A stretch of 64,000 nt of DNA. It comes from Lasiosphaeris hirsuta (taxonomy: Eukaryota; Ascomycota; Sordariomycetes; Sordariales; Lasiosphaeriaceae). The translations under genes were made by a program, and so were the position numbers. The notes below the pieces were generated by a model, which was given only the letters and a program-made list of their open reading frames with translations, did no database searches and was not told the DNA's origin. Shown one piece after another: positions 1 through 64,000 of this stretch. The stretch lies in NCBI GenBank assembly GCA_030549175.1, contig JAUKUA010000003.1, forward strand, positions 1,178,001-1,242,000, given 5' to 3'. Within the stretch, counting starts at the first letter, position 1; every line of letters begins with the position of its first letter.

Positions 1-48
1 CCCTGGATAGACTCGGTCGGGAGAAATGGAGAGCAGGTAGAAACTTAC

Positions 49-3000
49 ATGGAAGGTTCTCTTGCAATGAAACCAGAGGAACAAGAGCTCTGGCGCTATG
101 TGCGCCCGAAGCCATACCACGATCTTCGTCCGCCTACTTCGCTCCGGCCCGTGTACACGCCGAAGCTTGGCCCGCCCACTCAGTGGGACACGTCAGACAG
201 CGAGGAATGGAGCAGTGATGGGTCAAGCCGTACGAGGGACTTTGACTACTTCCGTGCCAGACTGCGGGGCGACTTTGAGTGGGAGCTCGATCGTCTCACT
301 GCTCAGAAGACGAGATACGAGAAGCACAAGGACAAGAAGGCCCAAGCCGCTGCTGTCGAAGCCGCCAGAAAAGAGGAGGAGGAGCGAGCGGCGCGGGAGC
401 TGGAGATACAGCAGGAGAGAGAAAACGCCGCAGCAGAAAACAGTCAGCCCGCTGAGGGCCAGCAGGGCCAGGAGGGCCAGGAGAGCACCGGGCCCATCCC
501 TGAAGTGGAGACAAAGCCGAAAGTCGAAGAAACCCAGAAACCCAAGGACCTCAAGGCCATACTCGAGCCCTGGGGCGTGGCGAAGTTAAATCCCGTTGAC
601 TGGGCCGCGTTCAGGACTGCTCGGAATTCCGAAGTTAGGTTGTCGTTTGCCATCGATATCCTGCTGGGCGAGCCAAAGCTCGAGAGCGGTACCCAGTGGG
701 TAATCAGTCGGACTCGTCAAACGGCGAAGCCTGGAGCAAAGGGACGTGCCGCCGCAAAGAACTTGGCGTCGGCCACTGCCAAGGCCGAATCACTGATAAA
801 GAGCGGCCAAGGAGCTCTGCCCGAGAGAATCAGAGTCCACTCCAAACAACTTATCAAGACGCTTTCGGTTCTCCATGGAACCGACCTCACCGCCGACTAC
901 AATGATAGCGCCATCGTCATGATCCGCCCCTTTCGTATGCTGACCTACTACGAAAAAGAGATACGCGCCTGGCAGTCGAAGCTGATCGAAGAACTGCGGC
1001 CAACGGAGAACAGTCCAGTTGCCGCCACGACAACCGCCGAGGAGGCCAGGGCTGACGACGGCCCAGTGGTAGAAGAAGAACCGCCCAAAGTTGCGGACCC
1101 TTACAACCATAGCAAGTCCGAAGTCACGCTGGCCCACCTGCCATGCCTCATCGAGTTCCTAGATAAGTACGTCGTTGAGAAGCTCGCCTATCTTAACAGC
1201 CCAGCGTGTGAAAAGGTTGGCTTCTCCGACATCTGGCATTTGTTCAAGCCTGGAGATTTTGTCATCTCAGCCGATGGCAAGCAGGCCTATCGGGTGGTGA
1301 AGCTGAGCTCGCCATCGCACAAGGGCACCGACCGCTGGGCCGTGTACAAGGGGTCGCGCGAGGAGGCGAGCGCGTCCAAACGCGACGACATTGTCATCCA
1401 CTGCGTCTACATTCACTTTGACGGCACACAGCTAGGGCCCGTCCTCGAGACGTTCCGAATCAAGAAGTACGACGGCGAAAAGGCTGTGACGGCGCTCGAA
1501 GTGTATCCACTGCGCTTCCACGTTCAAAAGGACTTCGAGGTCCGCACTGCCAAGGCCAAGCACGACGCGGCCGGACTCGGAGATGCCGTGGCGAGCAGTG
1601 TTGCTCGGCTGCGCGAGAGTCTAATCCAGCGAGGGCGGCTGTTCGTCGATGTCACGGCGGTCAAGCACATGTACTATGCCGGGCTGACGGTGGACACGCG
1701 CGATGAAGTCGAGAGCCAGGTCATGATCGATTTCGAGGAGGCCTTTGCCGGGGACAAGAACCGAGAGCAGGGGTGGCGTCCCAACATCACGCGAGTAGTG
1801 GGCACGCCCCTCGATGAGCCAGCCGAGGAAGGCAGCAAAAGCTGCGAAGCCGGGTGCTGCTGGGGTGAAGAGATCCACGACGACTCGTACGTCGAGAGCA
1901 AGCGGCACCAGGACTTTATCAACAGCATGATGGCTGAGCTCGAGGACAGTCCGCTCAAGCTGCCGTCCGCTGCCATCTTTCCCCGCACTCTGGAAGATAT
2001 CAAAGTAGAAGAGAATGCGCTGAAGGAAGATGAGCTGCTCATCATGTCGTACCGTGTCTTTGGATTTGTTCTGCGCGACCGAACGTGGGGTAAGTCACTT
2101 GCGAGAATCATTCCCGTGCCTTCCTCCCGTCTGTCGTTGTGCTGGGAAATGCGCCCGTGCCCACATGGCCTGTGCCCGCTGGCCACTGGCCACTGGCAAC
2201 TGCCTCCCCTATCTATCTGCTTCCAATTCGGCCAGGTGCTAACAGTGACACGCGCAGCCCAGCTAGACTTGACCTATCTGACCGAGATTGCCTCTGAAGG
2301 GGGCAGTGTCGACGCCGGTGGCGACGGGGCTGAGGACGACTCGGAAGAGGACAAATCTGCCTTTGGCCGACTTGTTCTCCCAGGAGGTCACAAGGGCATG
2401 GTTCTTTCTCTTGTCTCTCAGCACTTTCGAAACAAGCGATCCCAAAAGGGCAAGGACGAGCAGGTCGACATTGTCCGAGGCAAAGGTCCGTTCCTGCCCA
2501 TCAATGATTTGATTTTCCATCTGGCTGACATCCTCCAGGCAAAGGATTGATCATTCTTCTTCATGGAGCCCCGGGTGTCGGAAAGACTACTACGGCTGGT
2601 AAGATTTCAACAACGCCCTTTCTCAGCCCACCCGACTAATACAACGATAGAGGGCGTTGCCGAGAAGTTCAAGAAACCTCTCTTCCAGATAACCTGTGGT
2701 AAGTAACCCTCAAGGGCTGCTACGGCGTGCATTGCCTCTTTCTCACACAGCTTCTAGGTGACCTTGGCGCAAATGCCAAAGATGTGGAGGCAGCATTACA
2801 GACGAATTTTGCGCTAGCTAATAGATGGGACTGCATTCTTCTTCTCGACGAGGCAGACGTGTTCCTGGCCGAGAGACGACGGAACGACTTCAGCAGAAAT
2901 GGACTGGTGGCAGGTTAGTATAAGGAGCCCAGTCCGACATTTCAACAATGCTAACACCTGTCAGTCTTCCTCCGGGTGCTTGAGTACTATGCTGGAATTC

Positions 3001-4139
3001 TGTTCCTCACGACAAACCGAATTGGAGACTTTGATGAAGCTTTCGCCTCGAGAATCCACATGAGTCTGCATTACCCACAGCTCGACGAGTTATCGACGAC
3101 CCGAGTCTTCAGGTTGAACTTGGGCATGATCAGGGCGCGATATAAGAGCCAAGATAGAAAGCTCAAGATCGACGAAGACGAAATCATCCATATGGTGGGT
3201 GAGTTCTGGCGAAAGCAGGACAAGGCAAGATGGAACGGCCGTCAGATCCGCAACGCTTGCCAGACGGCATTGGCTCTGGCCGAGTTTGACGCGCAGCCAG
3301 AAGGAAGCAAGTACGACTTGAAGGTACGGTCAGATGCCAAGGTACACCTCAAGGTCGGACATCTAGTCACCGTGTCAAACGCCTACCTGGAGTTCATGGA
3401 ATACCTGAAAGCCGTCCATGGCGCCGATGCCGAGACGTATGCCAAAGAGTCTGGTGTCCGCGCACTCGAGACAGTCATTGCAGCGCTCAAGGCTGGTAAA
3501 AGCGTTGGCGGCAAGTCCCCGGATCATGAACCGAAGAGCGAGAGACTCCTTCATGCCTTCAAGCTCAAGCCAACATCCCAGCAAACCACGGCGCCCCCGC
3601 CGGACCAGAGCTACCATCCCCAGCACCAATACCGCGAACCCCCTCGCCCAACAGCACAGTCAGCACAGTACAGCCCAAGGCTTGCAGTAGCAAACCCACA
3701 GGCCATCGACCCACGCACCGGTCTTCCAGCTGCCCACACATATGCACCACATGCCGCCGACCCCAACTACCCTCAGCACTACTTGCCTCCGGGTCAGGGG
3801 CAGTTCCACGGTCAGCAGCTCTCAGTCCCGCAACAGGGCTCGTACCAGCTGCCGACAGCAGGGTCATCATCGGCATATCAACCCCCCCCTGCTGGATATT
3901 CCGCCGGCGGTGACCCACGCGTAGGAGCTGGGCAACCACATGAACTAGGCGGTCAAGGCCACCAGTGGACGGGGGCGTACCACGGGGTGGAGACTGGGCA
4001 GGGCAACAGGCAGCTGCACAATAGGAGCCCCTCGGCTAGCCAGACTCAGGCTGATTATGACGGGAGACAGCGGGCGGGGAGCGGTGGTGGTGAGTATCCG
4101 CCTACCGGGGCTCACGCCGGCCACGGTGGGCCGCAGTGA
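49..4139 (+). CDS. AAA+ ATPase with DUF7025-like N-terminal region
   Basis: Six exons are proposed: 49-2089, 2258-2485, 2539-2598, 2651-2698, 2758-2913 and 2965-4139, giving about 1,235 residues. All introns are GT-AG, and the joins restore a continuous AAA+ core. Visible motifs are Walker A GAPGVGKT (766-773), Walker B ILLLDE (819-824), sensor-1 TTNR (860-863) and the arginine-finger region SRIH (873-876). Residues about 360-490 (FKPGDFV...YIHFDG...EVYPLRFH) resemble the DUF7025 domain that precedes AAA+ modules in many fungal proteins. The N-terminal 60-130 is charged and coiled-coil-like. After about residue 1000 the chain is low-complexity and rich in Pro, Gln, Gly and Tyr. The family hydrolyses ATP to remodel proteins or complexes; the substrate is unknown. 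The first intron (168 nt) is in frame, so a reading without splicing is also open. The start could be Met1, Met7 or an exon left of the window. It converges on the methyltransferase, 217 bp away. Confidence 0.87.
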
Positions 4140-4356
4140 GGCTTCTTCTAAAGATCTATTCATTGTGCTTTTTCTTATTTCAATTCTTCTCCGTTTAATC
4201 AATCCCTTCTTTGGGATTTTCATGCCAAGTTTCGATGCTGGAAGCTGAGACAACAAATGGGTTAACTCAATCCTTACAAACACCCTTGAAGAGAAATCAT
4301 TAGCTCGTAGCCCTAGGCGAGTGTAGATACAGACAAATTCCATCTATTCAAGGCGC

Positions 4357-5130
4357 TCAAATCTTCCTTAGGATACCCCCGTACCAAACCTTGACACCAA
4401 CCCATTTCTCCGCCCGCGGGCCAAACGATTGCCAATTCTCTTCAGTGATACCCCTCTCACAGAACCCCTCGACAACCTCAAACCCATTCTTGCCCGCCTC
4501 CGCTACAACCTCTTCAACCGAATGTGCATAACTTTTTGGTCTGATTTTCTCTCCCGTATGGGGGTCGATGAACCCAGCTTGGCTGATCCTTCCCATCTCA
4601 CTATGCATGTTCGTCACTAACAACAACCCCCCGTCCTTCAACATCCCCGCCGCCGCCTCAAAGTAAACCCCCAACGCAATATGCTCCAACACTAGCGTCG
4701 AAACCACTGCATCGGCCCCCCGCGGAACCTCGCCCCCCGGCTTTGAAACATCAAAGACCCGTAGCGAAAATCCCCCGCCCGGCGCGGCAGCCTCCAACCG
4801 CCCCCGCGCGACTTCGAGCATCTTGGGACTGAGATCGAGCCCAACGACTTCGACGTCGGGGAGGGTGACGAGGTGCACTGTGTTGCGGCCGGTCCCGCAG
4901 CCGAGGTCGACGAGCTTCCAGGGTTTGGGGGAGGCGATGAGGAAGGTTAGTCTCGGGAGGAGGGATATCATCTCGAGCGAGTCGAGTGCTTGCAGGAAGT
5001 TGGAGTCGGTGTCGTACACGGATGACCAGAGATCGTAGGCGGTAGCTGTGTCGAGGTACTTTATGGAGAGGGGGGCCCCGGGATTCGCCATTGCGGTTGT
5101 CTTGTCGAGTGTCAACCGTACGAATGTCAA
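4357..5130 (-). CDS. Class I SAM-dependent methyltransferase
   Basis: A single-exon protein of 257 residues. Motif I, LVDLGCGTGRNT, lies at 73-84. The acidic residue that would bind the ribose of S-adenosylmethionine is in VVGLDLSP (95-102). Motif II-like ADAVVSTLVLEH (139-150) and the post-motif strand GGLLLVTNMH (167-176) follow. This order is that of the methyltransferase type 11/12 superfamily with a Rossmann fold. No signal peptide or membrane segment is visible, so it is probably cytosolic. The substrate cannot be read from the sequence. Met14 (codon at 5089-5091) begins a cleaner N-terminus and may be the true start; the first 13 residues may then be leader. It is transcribed towards the AAA+ gene. 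Confidence 0.88.
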   Translation of the reverse strand: MTFVRLTLDKTTAMANPGAPLSIKYLDTATAYDLWSSVYDTDSNFLQALDSLEMISLLPRLTFLIASPKPWKLVDLGCGTGRNTVHLVTLPDVEVVGLDLSPKMLEVARGRLEAAAPGGGFSLRVFDVSKPGGEVPRGADAVVSTLVLEHIALGVYFEAAAGMLKDGGLLLVTNMHSEMGRISQAGFIDPHTGEKIRPKSYAHSVEEVVAEAGKNGFEVVEGFCERGITEENWQSFGPRAEKWVGVKVWYGGILRKI

Positions 5131-5610
5131 AATCAGCGGGATTGAAGAATTGGCTGACTTTCGATAAGAGTGCGTGTTCGGAGTTGAGCAATTGAAGGAT
5201 CAGGGCATGTTGACGTCTCGTCTTATTAGTGTGTCGCTGGTGAGTCACCTATAAGTTGCTAGCCAAGACCATTCATCTTCCCCACCAATGCTCCCTGCAA
5301 GGTGCGGAGGCGGCAGCTCGCCACAGCCATATTGATGGCGCTGGTTCCCCTTTTCACCTATCATCGGCTTTCCACAGCAGTAGACCGAGACAACAGCAAC
5401 TTATCAGTCTAACTGGTACAGTCACATCTAAAACGTCACTAGCCGGCCCACTTTGGCCCCACACGCCACATCTACCCCCCTGTAATCTGAGATATCTAGC
5501 CCTCTAAAATACGGCGTCAATAGGTCCGATTTAGATCTGCAGGGCACCTATTGAAGCTGTTGAAGCGAAGCCGGAGTCCACATCTACAGGTGGTGTAGTT
5601 GCGGCACAGT
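5131..5610. other. Intergenic, methyltransferase upstream region
   Basis: No convincing gene is seen. It should hold the methyltransferase promoter. Base composition is still gene-like up to about 5.5 kb and then turns AT-rich and repetitive, marking the edge of the transposon block. Confidence 0.5.
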
Positions 5611-5688
5611 TAGTAGCAAAGTAGCAAGGCTAGCAGCAAGGCTAGCAGCAAAGTAGGTAGTAAAGTAGGCAGCAAAGTAAGTAATTAA
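5611..5688. repeat. Short imperfect tandem repeat
   Basis: About six to seven units of 9-12 bp based on agcaaagtag / agcaaggct / agtaaagtaggc. It lies just before a GC-rich palindromic patch (5750-5790), in sequence that is otherwise AT-rich. Confidence 0.7.
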
Positions 5689-6064
5689 GTATATAAAACA
5701 GGCTTAAAGCTGCCAAATATGCCCTTTTTCTTCTTTTTTTGCCTCCAGCGGCGCCGCCGGCGGGCCCCTACGGGGGGCTCCTCGCTACGCTCGAGAGCTG
5801 AGCCACTACTTACAGTCTCGCCACTATTTACATTCCGAGTCCGGAGTGTTGAACGCAATCCATGGTGTTGAGCGCCCGCAGTTTGCACACTTTACACACA
5901 AAAAGCGGTACAGAAAGCGGTACAGAATCCAGTCAATTAGCTAGTTAGTTATCAACACCACAACCACAAGCCCGGCCTGGCTCTCGATATATCCATCCAC
6001 ATGCATATCCTCCCTCTCTTGCGATGTTTTCCCTGCATTGCAAGTGTTCCAGGCGTTCTAGGGT

Positions 6065-58694: not shown

Positions 58695-60438
58695 ATAATT
58701 ACGATATTTTCGACCTGTCTAAGTAATAGAATTTGCGGAAGATTCTAAATAAAGATTATTTAAAATAATACTGGTATATTAGTATTATATATAAGGTAAT
58801 AATAGTAATAAGTCTTACTTTCAGTCTTTCCAGAATATCCTTAAACTAGTTCTTAACTTGGTTAAGGTACCGTCCCGGCTCTCGACGCTCTAATCTAGTA
58901 ATAGCAGCTTATTAACGTCCTAACTAACTAAGTTTCCTGCCTACGAACACGTTAAATTATTGTTAAAGCTGCGTATAGTATTATTAAACAGGTCGTAATA
59001 ACATCCTCTAAGGATTACAGGCTACGGGTACGAGAATAAGTCGAGCCGCTCAGATCTAGCCTTCGTAGAGTTCTGGCTTAACAATACTCTTCCCTCCCCT
59101 TACCTTAGCCACTGGGCGACGTAGCCGGCTCCTCTAAGTACCACGAGATGCCCTCGTAGCCGTGGGAGATAGGCCTTTAAAACGACAGAATAGCGGTTTG
59201 AAGCGGCAGAAAAGGGCTTGAAAGCAATCAAATAGGTACTAGAGGACACGAGTCAAGATAGCTGTTACCACGCAGTCAAATCACCACAGTAATCAAACAG
59301 AGCGTTAGGGAAATCTGTCCCGAGTGACCACTAATAAAGGCCGTTCGTGTCCCGTAGACCTCCTAAAGCAGGTAGGTGCTCTCTGGCAAGTGCGACACGC
59401 GTATCGGCACACCTGGAACGATGTCCTTGAACACCGCCAGGAATTGAACGCCGCCTCCGCTTCCCTGCCGCGGGTAAATATCACCCATCACCCATCACCC
59501 ATTAGCCACAGAAACAGGTGGGACCGGGAGTCCCATAATTGGGTAGAAAGCTGAATGGAAAGGGTGGAGCGATTTTCATATATGCGTGCAATATGAACCC
59601 GGTAGTGGGTTAGCAGACGAACGCGAGCCTCGACAATCTCCCTACCCCGAGAAACTCCCTGCAGAACACATACAATGGGGGGACACCAAGCTGGCAATTG
59701 AAAACATAACCAGAGGGGCCAGGGCGCCTGCTGTGGGAGTCATGTGACATACATCGTAGGCATCCTCTCGGCATCTCGACGGACATTTTAGGCCCAGATA
59801 ATACCTTTCTAGTATCTGAAAAGGCATATCCAGCAACTAGTATATATATCTCTCCCTAATAACGAAGAAATAGGTCAACTGGGTGGACAAGTGTCTCATA
59901 CAAACAGTTTTGGAGGCCTTTTGAACCTTTGCAGCCTGAAGCGGGAGACAACGGGTTTTCTACTTTTCTACCCTAGAGACTTTTGAGTCATAATTACGCC
60001 AACAAGCAAACAAGGGCTGGGGTGTGAACACAATGACAATGGCAAAGTTTGCGGGCTTCAAACCAAATACACATGTTAACAGAAAGTCTTCTCGTATATT
60101 TCCTTGGCCATGCGCTATAAAATATGTCGAAAGAAAGCAGAATCCCACCCAGGATCAACGCCGGTACTAATGCATACAAGCCAGATTTTCTTTTCGCGAG
60201 CCAACCTCCCCCCTTCCTTCCCCTTCTCCTTTCCCCTTTTTGTAATAAGATCATGTTCGCCTTTTTGCACCTTGATTTTCCCCAGTAAAGTCGTAAATAA
60301 TGCTGTCGTAATACTCGATCCCCAGGACACAGGGGAACGGCGCCATTTCACCTCGCCTACACAAGGAAGTTAGTCAAACAAGAAAATAGCATTTGGCTGT
60401 GGTAGCCGTGCATCCCGTTTCCGCATTGCTGTATCCTT
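58695..60438. other. Intergenic, no supported gene
   Basis: 58,695-59,030 is AT-rich and RIP-like. 59,050-60,438 has normal composition with only short overlapping frames. The right end probably holds the 3' UTR of the caspase-like gene. Confidence 0.5.
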
Positions 60439-63128
60439 CTAGTCAACGTCCATGGTGTCCGAAGCGAGAGTCGGTATTGCAACCGTGATGGACGGATCTT
60501 CGTCTTCTCGTTTCGCGCAGTCCGAGAGGAACGAGCTGTTGTTTACGTCCCGTTCACCACTCCCTGGTCCGTTCCCTGCACAAAGCTTGTATTCGCCATC
60601 CTCCTGCCGCTCGATGATTCCTTCCTCTAGAGCCCATTTCGCCAACATCCCATCAACCCCAAGCCGCTGGGCCTCGCCCTTTTCCATGTGCCGACCGACA
60701 TGCTCAGTCCATTCGTCCCAGGACCCGGCACCTTCAAAAATAGTTTGGCAATCGGATTTAGGACATGCCGATTGTTGTGGTGGCTGCCTCCTAATGACAA
60801 GACAACTTGTTTGCATCTCCTTGACATGCGACTCCCATTCTACCTGCATCTTGCTGTCCCCTTTGGCTATTGACTTCTTGATGGCGAATGGCGCGTGCAT
60901 TCGACGCAAGTGTTGTGTGAAGAGATCCTTGCGGTTGAACTCGTTTCCTTTGCCGTCGGCGCTGCTCTGCGGGCATGAAGAGCATCGATAGTAGGTTAAA
61001 CACAAGTGCTGGGAGGCTATGTGCCGCTTCCACTCGTTTTTGGATCCAAAAGTGCTTGTGCAGCCAGCAAAGGAGAAAGCGCAAGGGAATGGTCTTGTGT
61101 GTGCAGCCGCAATGTGTTTGCGGAGCGAAGAGGAATCCTTAAACGGGGCATGGCTGCAATGCGTGCATCGGGTCTCTTGCTTCGGTGTCTGCTTCTGGAG
61201 CGGCCTTCTGGCTTTCGGTTTGGTTGGCGGGGTGTTGAATCCACCGCCGTGATGGTTTTCGTCGATCCCGGATTCGTTCGCTTCAGGCGAGGAGCCGGGA
61301 TCATCAACATGCCTGACGGCAATGCTGTCTCCTACCCTAGTCTGGCGGTCCGAGCTTGATGGTGTCTCGTCACTCATATGCCGGACGTGGCTCAGGGCCT
61401 TTAGCTGCTCTGCTGCCTCCTTCATTTCTGCCGAGTCCTCAACCTCGTCCTTGGGGTCGACGGCTGCCGGCTGTGCCGGACTCCCTTGGGGCAAAGGTGC
61501 CGAAGCGCTGGACGGGGCTGCCTGAGCCGGCTGCTTTTGCCTCGCGGTTTCCTGCTGTTGGGGGTGGTACTGGCCGGTGGCCTCACGCCGAACAACGGAT
61601 GGACTTCCGGCGGCAGCTGGATCCTCGACACCCTTGGGCACCAGGGAATCCTTGGACGTCGAATTGACGAGGCGCTGGTATAGGTGAATCATGTTGTTGG
61701 AATTGATGTGTCCGAGGAAGCAGCAAACTTTATCGTGCTGAACAATGCTCCATATAGCATGGGGCATTGAGATGAGCAGCATGGTAGGCGGGCCTAGAAA
61801 CATGCCCTCGACAGTGATCTTGGATGCAATGGATGGCATATTGTGGAGCCACTGGTTGAAAAAGGCCATATCGGGATTTGCATCCCCAACAAAAGTTGTG
61901 CATACCAAGACTCGAGCCTCATCGAAAATCAAGTCGGTGACCTCCTCCGGGGCTATTGGGCGATCTTCACGAGCACCCTTCCAAGGGCTTTGCGAGTCCG
62001 CTTCGACCGATTGAGGAGGCGATTGCAGACGGGCTCCCTTGGGGTCTAAGGGGACAAGAATTATACCGTGTCCCTTCGCAGCGGTCAAGGTGAAGAATAC
62101 TGGTGACTTCTCAGGGGCCGCAACCGGCTTGGCTGCTCCATTGGTTAGCCTCGCCACGGCCTGTGCAGCCTCTTGTTGCCTTTGCGTCAAGAGCTCGTCG
62201 TAAAGCCTTTGAACACTGAAAGGTTGGCCCGTACTGAGCCTATCAAGTGCTTCGGCCAAGTTGGCGGTGAATGAGCGAGACCCGGGCTCGAGTGAGCTCT
62301 GGTCGGGAGTGAAGGCGGCGATGGCCTGCTTCGCGCCGTGGCTTCCGGCTAGAGCTGCATCCCGGACAGCACAGGAGTCAATTAGGAGCAAAATCTCGGA
62401 TTGGGCATCCTCAAAGAGACAGCGCACTCCATCCCACTTCAATTTGGCCGCATCTTCGCGAGTATTGCTGCACAAGATAGGTCAGTGCGAGTAGGCGCAT
62501 CGCACGAGCGATTTGACTCACGAAGCCCAGAGGAGCTGATTGTCAGGTCCGACATAGCCATGACCGGCGTAGTATATGATCAGAAGATGGTCTGGACGGG
62601 CATTTTCGAGAAAGGAGGCAATTCGGGCGCCCAGCTTGATGCTGGGGTTGGGCACGGTAGGGATAGCCCACTTGTCGGTGTGGTAGTTGTATCTCTCCCG
62701 AAACACCTTTTCCAGGGCGAGCAGGTCTGGCTCGACCGAAGTATCCTCGTCCCACCTCAACAGCAGCACCGACACATTGGTGTGCTGCGACTTTAGAGTC
62801 TGCTGGTAAATATGCATGGCGGCATCCTGGAGGTGCCGAGCGAATGCCTCGAAGTCATGGCGCTCGGGTTGCGGCGCAATCGGCTCGGGAGGGAGGTGTT
62901 GGGGGGCTTGCTACAATTCGAATGTGTCAGCCTCCTCGAACAGCTCGGAGCCAGCAACCAGCGGCCGAGACGGCAGATGCGACAGCAGCCCGCAATTCAC
63001 AATGCACACACCTGGTCCTGGGCAAAGGGTTGCGCCGGCGGCAGGGCGGGCGCCGGCACGGGGAGAGAAGATGCGGGCGGATCAGGGACTTTCGGTGCCA
63101 GTCTCCTCCGCTTCGACGACGGCTCCAT
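60439..63128 (-). CDS. Caspase-like (C14-type) protein with three C2H2 zinc fingers
   Basis: Three exons on the minus strand: 63128-63012, 62910-62522 and 62467-60439, 844 residues. Introns are GT-AG (101 and 54 nt) and the joins are in frame. The first exon gives a basic N-terminus (SSKRRRL) that could be a nuclear signal. Residues about 80-210 form a caspase-like domain: a strand VSVLLLRWDED, then HLLIIYYAGHGY with the catalytic His at 156, and EILLLIDSCAV with Cys201. The His-Gly and Asp-Ser-Cys contexts are those of clan CD peptidases. A Pro/Gln/Ser-rich linker (about 440-590) leads to three C2H2 fingers: C603/C606/H620/H625, C631/C638/H651/H656 and C664/C667/H688/H693. The C-terminus is acidic. 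Cleavage specificity and role are unknown; regulated proteolysis near chromatin or in cell death is inference. Confidence 0.85.
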
Positions 63129-63351
63129 GGTCGGGCGGTTTCACTGCGGGCGGAAGCCGAGAGTCGCTGGCCCTCGGAGGGGGGAGAGAATGGCAGAGAG
63201 GAGATACTCGGCTCGATCCGACTCAAGCGGCGTTCGGGCTGCAGGGCGGGGCAAATGAGCTCTCTCAGCGTCGAGGGCTCAGTAGAGTCGCGAATTGAAG
63301 ACGGCAGGAGGTGGGATGGAAGTGCAGGCGGAGGTGAGGCCGGGGAGTGGG

Positions 63352-63397
63352 AGCACTGGGAAGCACTGGGAAGCAGCACTGGCAGCACTGGCAGCAC
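63352..63397. repeat. Short tandem repeat gcactggga/gcactggca
   Basis: About five 9-12-bp units in the promoter-side region of the caspase-like gene. Confidence 0.75.
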
Positions 63398-63476
63398 CTT
63401 TGCAGAAGGTAAGGCTGTGCTGAGCTGGAAAAGAGCCATTCGGCTCTGATTTAGCCTCGTGGCAGGGCGGTGAATT

Positions 63477-63501
63477 GGTTGGATTGGCTGGATTGGCTGG
63501 A
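63477..63501. repeat. Short tandem repeat ggattggct
   Basis: About two and a half 10-bp units of ttggattggc. Its CCAAT-like complements (attgg) could bind CCAAT factors, but this is only a suggestion. Confidence 0.55.
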
Positions 63502-63670
63502 CTCGCTCGTGCCGGACGGCCTCGAGAGCAGAGGAGGGGGGAAGCGGGGCTGACCTCGCGGCCTCGTCCACTCACGAGCTGCCATCGAGACCAACGCACG
63601 AGCCCATGTGTGATCAAATGGCCAGGTTCCCCTCCACGCCTCTCCCCCTCGTGCCTCTCTCCATCCAGCT

Positions 63671-63709
63671 TTTCCACTCAATTCCACTCATTCCACTCAT
63701 TCCACTCAC
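63671..63709. repeat. Short tandem repeat ttccactcat
   Basis: Four units of 9-10 bp (ttccactca with a/t spacers). Confidence 0.8.
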
Positions 63710-64000
63710 GGCCTCTTGCTGACCTCTCACGGTGGCTCTTGTGTGTCGCTTGTGTCTCTCTGGCCGCCTCTCTTCTGGCTGGCTGTCCACTTTCCCTGTC
63801 TCTCTGCCTCCTCGCTGGCGGGCCCTGGCACGCCGTTTTGCATTTCCACGTCGCCCTGTGTTCCCCCTGCCCTCCCTGGACGGAGTGACCGCACTGGGCA
63901 CCCATTGTGCTCCCTTGTCATTCCTGTCCCTCCCCTCCTGTGTCCCGAGTGTCTTCCCATCGCTGTCCTCTGTCCTCCAGTCCGCCTCTGGTTCTCGCTC

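Follow-up and report, generated by a model that had tools for sequence, protein, structure and literature searches.

The closest described systems to the gene analyzed here are the proteins of a fungal homeobox–rhodanese family, represented by PAH7 in Podospora anserina and MoHOX4 in Magnaporthe (in the available parts of PMC3360767 and PMC5666362). Their homeodomain and rhodanese domain have already been published (available part of PMC5666362), and, as far as the accessible text of the reports goes, the deletion altered perithecium distribution in P. anserina and gave a smaller conidium size in M. oryzae (PMC3360767, PMC2779367). Caspase folds that no longer cut are described in bacterial conflict systems, where the caspase domain found at one effector position is inactive in about 70% of cases (available part of PMC7159879). 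In this study, a gene at the end of a 64,000-nucleotide stretch of Lasiosphaeris hirsuta (Sordariales; contig JAUKUA010000003.1, positions 1,178,001 to 1,242,000, referred to as the window) was analyzed, whose protein joins an N-terminal caspase fold to C-terminal C2H2 zinc fingers. We consider it reasonably likely that this is a conserved Sordariomycetes C2H2 zinc-finger protein, probably a nuclear regulator, that uses the caspase fold as a scaffold without a need to cut. As many relatives lost the cutting residues and kept the rest, the protein is more likely a regulator with a dead protease as its framework than a protease sitting on DNA.

Relatives were taken as the best 120 of 391 matches at E values up to 0.001 (56–100% identity to the query), and all counts of listed relatives below refer to these 120. 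Those bearing an organism name are all from Sordariomycetes, a class that we presume for most of them and that was checked for four names. Their labels are mostly "hypothetical" or C2H2, while P0037 is already annotated as peptidase C14, caspase domain and C2H2. A preliminary description of the gene, made from the DNA letters alone, had wondered about an orphan lineage of fungal C14 proteins; the lineage of caspase-fold proteins is indeed distinct, but with 391 relatives it is not an orphan.

The structure prediction gave a caspase alpha/beta fold, in which the His of YYAGHGY (H156) and the Cys of LLIDSCA (C201), the clan CD dyad of the preliminary description, come at the end of strand 3 and strand 4, respectively; the model places the domain in the caspase-hemoglobinase fold (clan CD). 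The profile search proposed with it gave a mixed outcome. Peptidase C14 (PF00656) was not listed for the window protein in the Pfam scan, though 27 of 46 relatives matched it at E up to 1 (best 0.0022) and P0242, a public model ending before the fingers, exceeded its cut-off (22.2 vs. 21.4). The best sequence-profile match was to the bacterial EACC1-associated caspases (NF047832), reached by 44 of the 46 with E values no higher than 1e-3 (best 1.5e-12) and aligned to positions 21–204 of 211 in P0001, the public L. hirsuta protein. However, scoring 40.3 bits where the cut-off is 140, the protein falls outside that family, and since the metacaspase-like protein L002 of the same genome also matches NF047832 (5.2e-8), the match indicates the superfamily rather than membership; this likeness concerns the caspase profile alone, as an EACC1 partner was not searched for. 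Similarly, the Raptor/Kog1 N-terminal CASPase-like profile (PF14538) matched 37 of 46 relatives at E up to 1 (best 4.5e-5), but with 15.8 bits vs. a cut-off of 27 the protein is not a member. With an E limit of 10, the caspase part had no match among PDB sequences.

Fungal type I metacaspases resemble the window protein in superfamily and in the AGHG/SGHG and D-S-C patterns, but differ in that the dyad of the C2H2 family is unconserved, a difference that also separates it from the MALT1 paracaspase and animal caspases. In detail, the window protein carries DSCAVRD, variable in the family, after the active-site strand, where the metacaspase-like L003 of its own genome carries DSCHSG, and the HSG is present in both L002 and L003. 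The protein is thus not a type I metacaspase, and the earlier remark that it is no usual metacaspase was borne out by a Cys loop without HSG. Further caspase-fold open frames of the genome (L018, L020, L026, and L027) contain or adjoin DUF7580 or weakly kinase-like sequence, a HET domain, or ankyrin repeats.

Zinc fingers were correctly recognized in the preliminary description, but their number is four rather than three: all 16 zinc ligands, spaced by 2-13-4, 6-12-4, 2-20-4, and 4-15-3 residues in fingers 1–4, are present in 119 of the 120 listed relatives, the exception being P0063 with gaps at eight of them. By these conserved ligands, the window protein is a C2H2 zinc-finger protein. The same four-finger module is found in another L. 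hirsuta open frame (L009:514-2766, forward strand, 751 aa), which is related to the finger part of the window protein; 15 of the 16 ligand columns align, and the remaining one lies in a gap with a Cys nearby. In contrast, the N-terminus of L009 is unlike that of the window protein, and no caspase match was seen in the 751-aa frame.

The catalytic residues behaved differently from the zinc ligands. Position 156 is His in 64 of the 104 listed relatives with a letter there, and otherwise Tyr (34), Phe (2), or Asn, Cys, Val, and Gln (one each), while position 201 is Cys in 106 of 118, Gly in 10, and Val and Tyr in one each; both His and Cys are kept in 56 of 103. On a tree of 103 relatives, built with the His and Cys columns excluded and after 17 of the 120 were dropped for lack of a letter at either site, at least 17 changes between His and not-His and 3 changes of Cys were counted. 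Scored by letter, the His column took 20 steps, a number above that of 78% of the columns in the same domain, while Tyr153, Gly155, and Trp167 took none. The same loss counts were obtained on a tree rooted with nine of 120 homeobox sequences, which grouped together, and there parsimony made His the ancestral state, with 26 losses if it never came back. Near relatives are affected as well, as P0003 (72% identical) has Asn and P0025 (68% identical) has Tyr in place of His, and the residues after Cys are unconserved in the family. The zinc ligands are unchanged in relatives having lost His or Cys. Because His was lost repeatedly with the fingers untouched, proteolysis is unlikely as the family function, and the protease put forward in the preliminary description was not supported as a family trait, with His replaced in 40 of 104 and Cys in 12 of 118. 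The family does not show the conserved His and Cys expected of Peptidase C14 as an active family, though the window protein has both.

Outside the fingers, the best conserved part is a second domain following the caspase fold, with a median of 2 steps per column, whereas the caspase part has 10 and the linker 21; 10 of its columns are invariant in 37 of 37 sequences, nine of them from the homeobox family. Folded alone, it was predicted as a beta-alpha-beta-beta-alpha-beta-alpha sandwich (mean predicted local distance difference test score, pLDDT, 73), and no specific match was found when this fold was compared. A helix in the otherwise fast-changing linker, EDSAEM[KQ]EAAEQLKALSHVRH, is almost invariant across the 120 listed relatives. 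That the second domain stays so conserved beside an active site in decay suggests selection for binding rather than for cutting.

The gene most likely originated through the fusion of a module of caspase fold and second domain, shared with PAH7/MoHOX4, to a four-finger module, a partner that also exists caspase-free in the same genome (L009). The basic N-terminal motif would bring the protein into the nucleus and the fingers would contact DNA or chromatin, while the caspase fold and the second domain would offer surfaces for protein–protein interaction, and the conserved linker helix may also bind partners. Such a use would be like that of the caspase-like domain of Raptor, which serves as a scaffold and is no longer an enzyme.

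Several points weigh against a nuclear regulator on a dead protease. The Pfam finger models matched below their curated cut-offs, so the finger assignment rests on the conserved ligands, and DNA binding by the fingers is proposed from sequence. That the fingers bind RNA or protein rather than DNA, which would make the protein a scaffold or a ribonucleoprotein part instead of a transcription regulator, appears unlikely. In its favor, the spacings are irregular, with 20 residues inside finger 3 and 43 between fingers 3 and 4, and very weak matches to TRAF-type (E 1.1) and dsRNA-binding (E 0.43) fingers were seen; against it, fingers 1 and 2 are connected by HTRPFPC, a short linker resembling that of classical DNA-binding fingers. 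The loss counts, further, come from quick trees under a single model, with a long outgroup branch (3.29) and parsimony counting.

The L. hirsuta protein itself keeps H156 and C201, as do more than half of the relatives scored for both, so it may itself be active, and an active enzyme may have been kept in some lineages and lost in others. A caspase-like cysteine protease that the fingers hold on DNA, active in the species with His and Cys and lost elsewhere, would fit the placement of the dyad after strands 3 and 4 of the predicted fold and its retention throughout the listed members of the homeobox sister family. Nevertheless, we regard it as improbable, in view of the many His losses, near relatives included, while the fingers and the second domain show no sign of decay, and of the unconserved residues after Cys.

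A role of Cys201 may also persist, as Cys was lost only 3 times. If this residue had its own non-proteolytic function, such as redox sensing or thiol modification, its better retention (106/118 vs. 64/104 for His) and the 3 losses vs. 17 His changes would be explained. Yet the 10 relatives with Gly201 form one group, Val and Tyr occur in two others, all with intact finger ligands, and the Cys, placed after a core strand, may owe its retention to packing, which makes such a function quite doubtful.

The region and splicing of the preliminary description were reproduced when the sequence was re-read, including coordinates, strand, the two introns, 844 codons plus stop, H156, and C201 (Table 1). 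P0001 (774 aa) starts at M71 and is identical to residues 71–844, so that it spans intron 2 at the identical place. A strict pattern places the basic motif of exon 1 (KRRRLAPK) near the N-terminus in 85 of the 120 listed relatives, and a looser pattern adds another 7, from which P0001 is judged, on sequence, to be probably too short at its start. As for the earlier proposal that KRRRL serves nuclear entry, the motif proved to be conserved, and nuclear import would be its likely role. The fusion is not a chance one, because all 45 aligned relatives are 59–77% identical to P0001. Two genes, or a wrong splice join, are hardly credible: P0001 begins 70 residues later, and truncation or missing fingers are also seen in some other public models, but exon 3 alone is one continuous open frame in which the half of the caspase fold with Cys is followed by the second domain and the complete set of fingers, and the relatives repeat the same fusion, so that the single protein first described stands.

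Table 1. Positions in the window of the gene and its features.
Feature	Position	Strand	Remarks
Whole coding region	60439..63128	-	start codon 63128-63126; 844 aa, 3 exons; P0001 = residues 71-844
Exon 1	63012..63128	-	residues 1-39; missing from public model P0001
KRRRL basic motif, residues 6-10	63099..63113	-	from sequence; likely nuclear import signal
Intron 1, 101 nt	62911..63011	-	GTGTGT...TAG; branch-like CTGAC at 62930
Exon 2	62522..62910	-	splice model
Intron 2, 54 nt	62468..62521	-	GTGAGT...CAG; branch-like CTGACCT at 62485; join matches P0001
Exon 3	60439..62467	-	stop included
Caspase-fold domain, residues 85-298	62080..62775	-	intron 2 inside
His156 codon	62560..62562	-	kept in 64/104 listed relatives with a letter
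Cys201 codon	62371..62373	-	kept in 106/118 listed relatives with a letter
Second conserved domain, residues 354-437	61663..61914	-	predicted ferredoxin-like; common to PAH7/MoHOX4
Helix EDSAEM[KQ]EAAEQLKALSHVRH, residues 512-532	61378..61440	-	conserved, in variable linker
C2H2 finger 1, residues 603-625	61099..61167	-	C603-C606-H620-H625
C2H2 finger 2, residues 631-656	61006..61083	-	C631-C638-H651-H656
C2H2 finger 3, residues 664-693	60895..60984	-	C664-C667-H688-H693
C2H2 finger 4, residues 737-762	60688..60765	-	C737-C742-H758-H762

A second search, with the cut caspase part as query and directed at short proteins (196–651 aa among the matches listed), gave 70 matches, of which the 11 with an organism name are all from Sordariomycetes. 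The taxonomic survey proposed earlier thus places all named holders among those listed in this class, within the best 120 of 391 relatives and the 70 caspase-part matches. Among 69 further sequences from this search, 51 have all 16 zinc ligands and 18 do not, the latter being mostly short or ending early; the public models P0242 (527 aa) and P0244 (623 aa) stop without fingers, and finger 1 is absent from those of P0259 and P0291. Where a letter is present, His is kept in 7 of 12 and Cys in 19 of 22. P0244, the most diverged relative among the matches listed (44% identical), keeps both His and Cys, ends in a Gln/His-rich tail without fingers, and sits on a contig of only 1958 bases.

Upstream of the gene, short imperfect repeats with GGCAGCACT, GGATTGGCT, and TTCCACTCA units were seen by eye at window positions 63340-63720. 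Elsewhere, window positions 10001-44000 form a long AT-rich stretch (G+C 0.29–0.44 per 2-kb block, compared with 0.53–0.59 in 1-6000 and 0.54–0.61 in 60001-64000), which possibly consists of degraded repeats.

The caspase part together with the second domain has one clear relative in the same genome, L008 (29% identity, E 1.5e-38, covering residues 10–362 of P0001), whose frame L008:763-2658 (reverse strand) is P0121, the L. hirsuta member of the homeobox–rhodanese family. PAH7, MoHOX4 (MGG_06285), and NCU00100 are alike in having a homologous caspase fold and second domain joined to a DNA-binding domain, but differ in the homeodomain and rhodanese domain, present in 27 of 27 sequences scanned, and in lacking the four-finger module; the window protein, with neither homeodomain nor rhodanese in the Pfam scan, does not belong to this family. 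In the N-terminal caspase-like domain of the homeobox proteins, His and Cys are invariant in all 120 listed sequences, and the Cys loop nearly so. One member, P0137, exceeds the Peptidase_C14 Pfam cut-off, and of the 27 scanned, 2 matched Peptidase_C14 at E up to 1 and all matched NF047832 at E up to 1e-3. As a control of equal divergence, however, this family is weakened: conservation is higher along the whole of its caspase part (median pairwise identity 0.865 vs. 0.605, invariant columns 111/207 vs. 18/213 in the C2H2 family), so the contrast in the dyad should be read with care.

The word "caspase" occurs nowhere in PMC3360767, PMC2779367, and PMC5666362, insofar as their text was available. 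In the open-access literature searched, with subscription papers and preprints outside the scope and absence thus unproven, neither a caspase–C2H2 fusion in fungi nor a caspase-like domain in PAH7/MoHOX4 was found among the papers listed.

The most interesting lead is the homeobox sister, outside the window. Within one fungal class, the caspase fold is combined with two kinds of DNA-binding domain, and while one line repeatedly loses the catalytic His, the other keeps it in every sequence listed, a natural experiment on the passage from protease to scaffold. This gives a testable reason to seek proteolysis in PAH7/MoHOX4, for which deletion mutants exist in two fungi. As a very unlikely further step, the two could form a pair of DNA-bound caspase-fold proteins in Sordariomycetes, which, if true, would link developmental gene control with proteolysis on chromatin: PAH7/MoHOX4 would be the active protease, and the C2H2 protein its decaying or dead counterpart, binding and regulating it via the second domain, as c-FLIP does with caspase-8.
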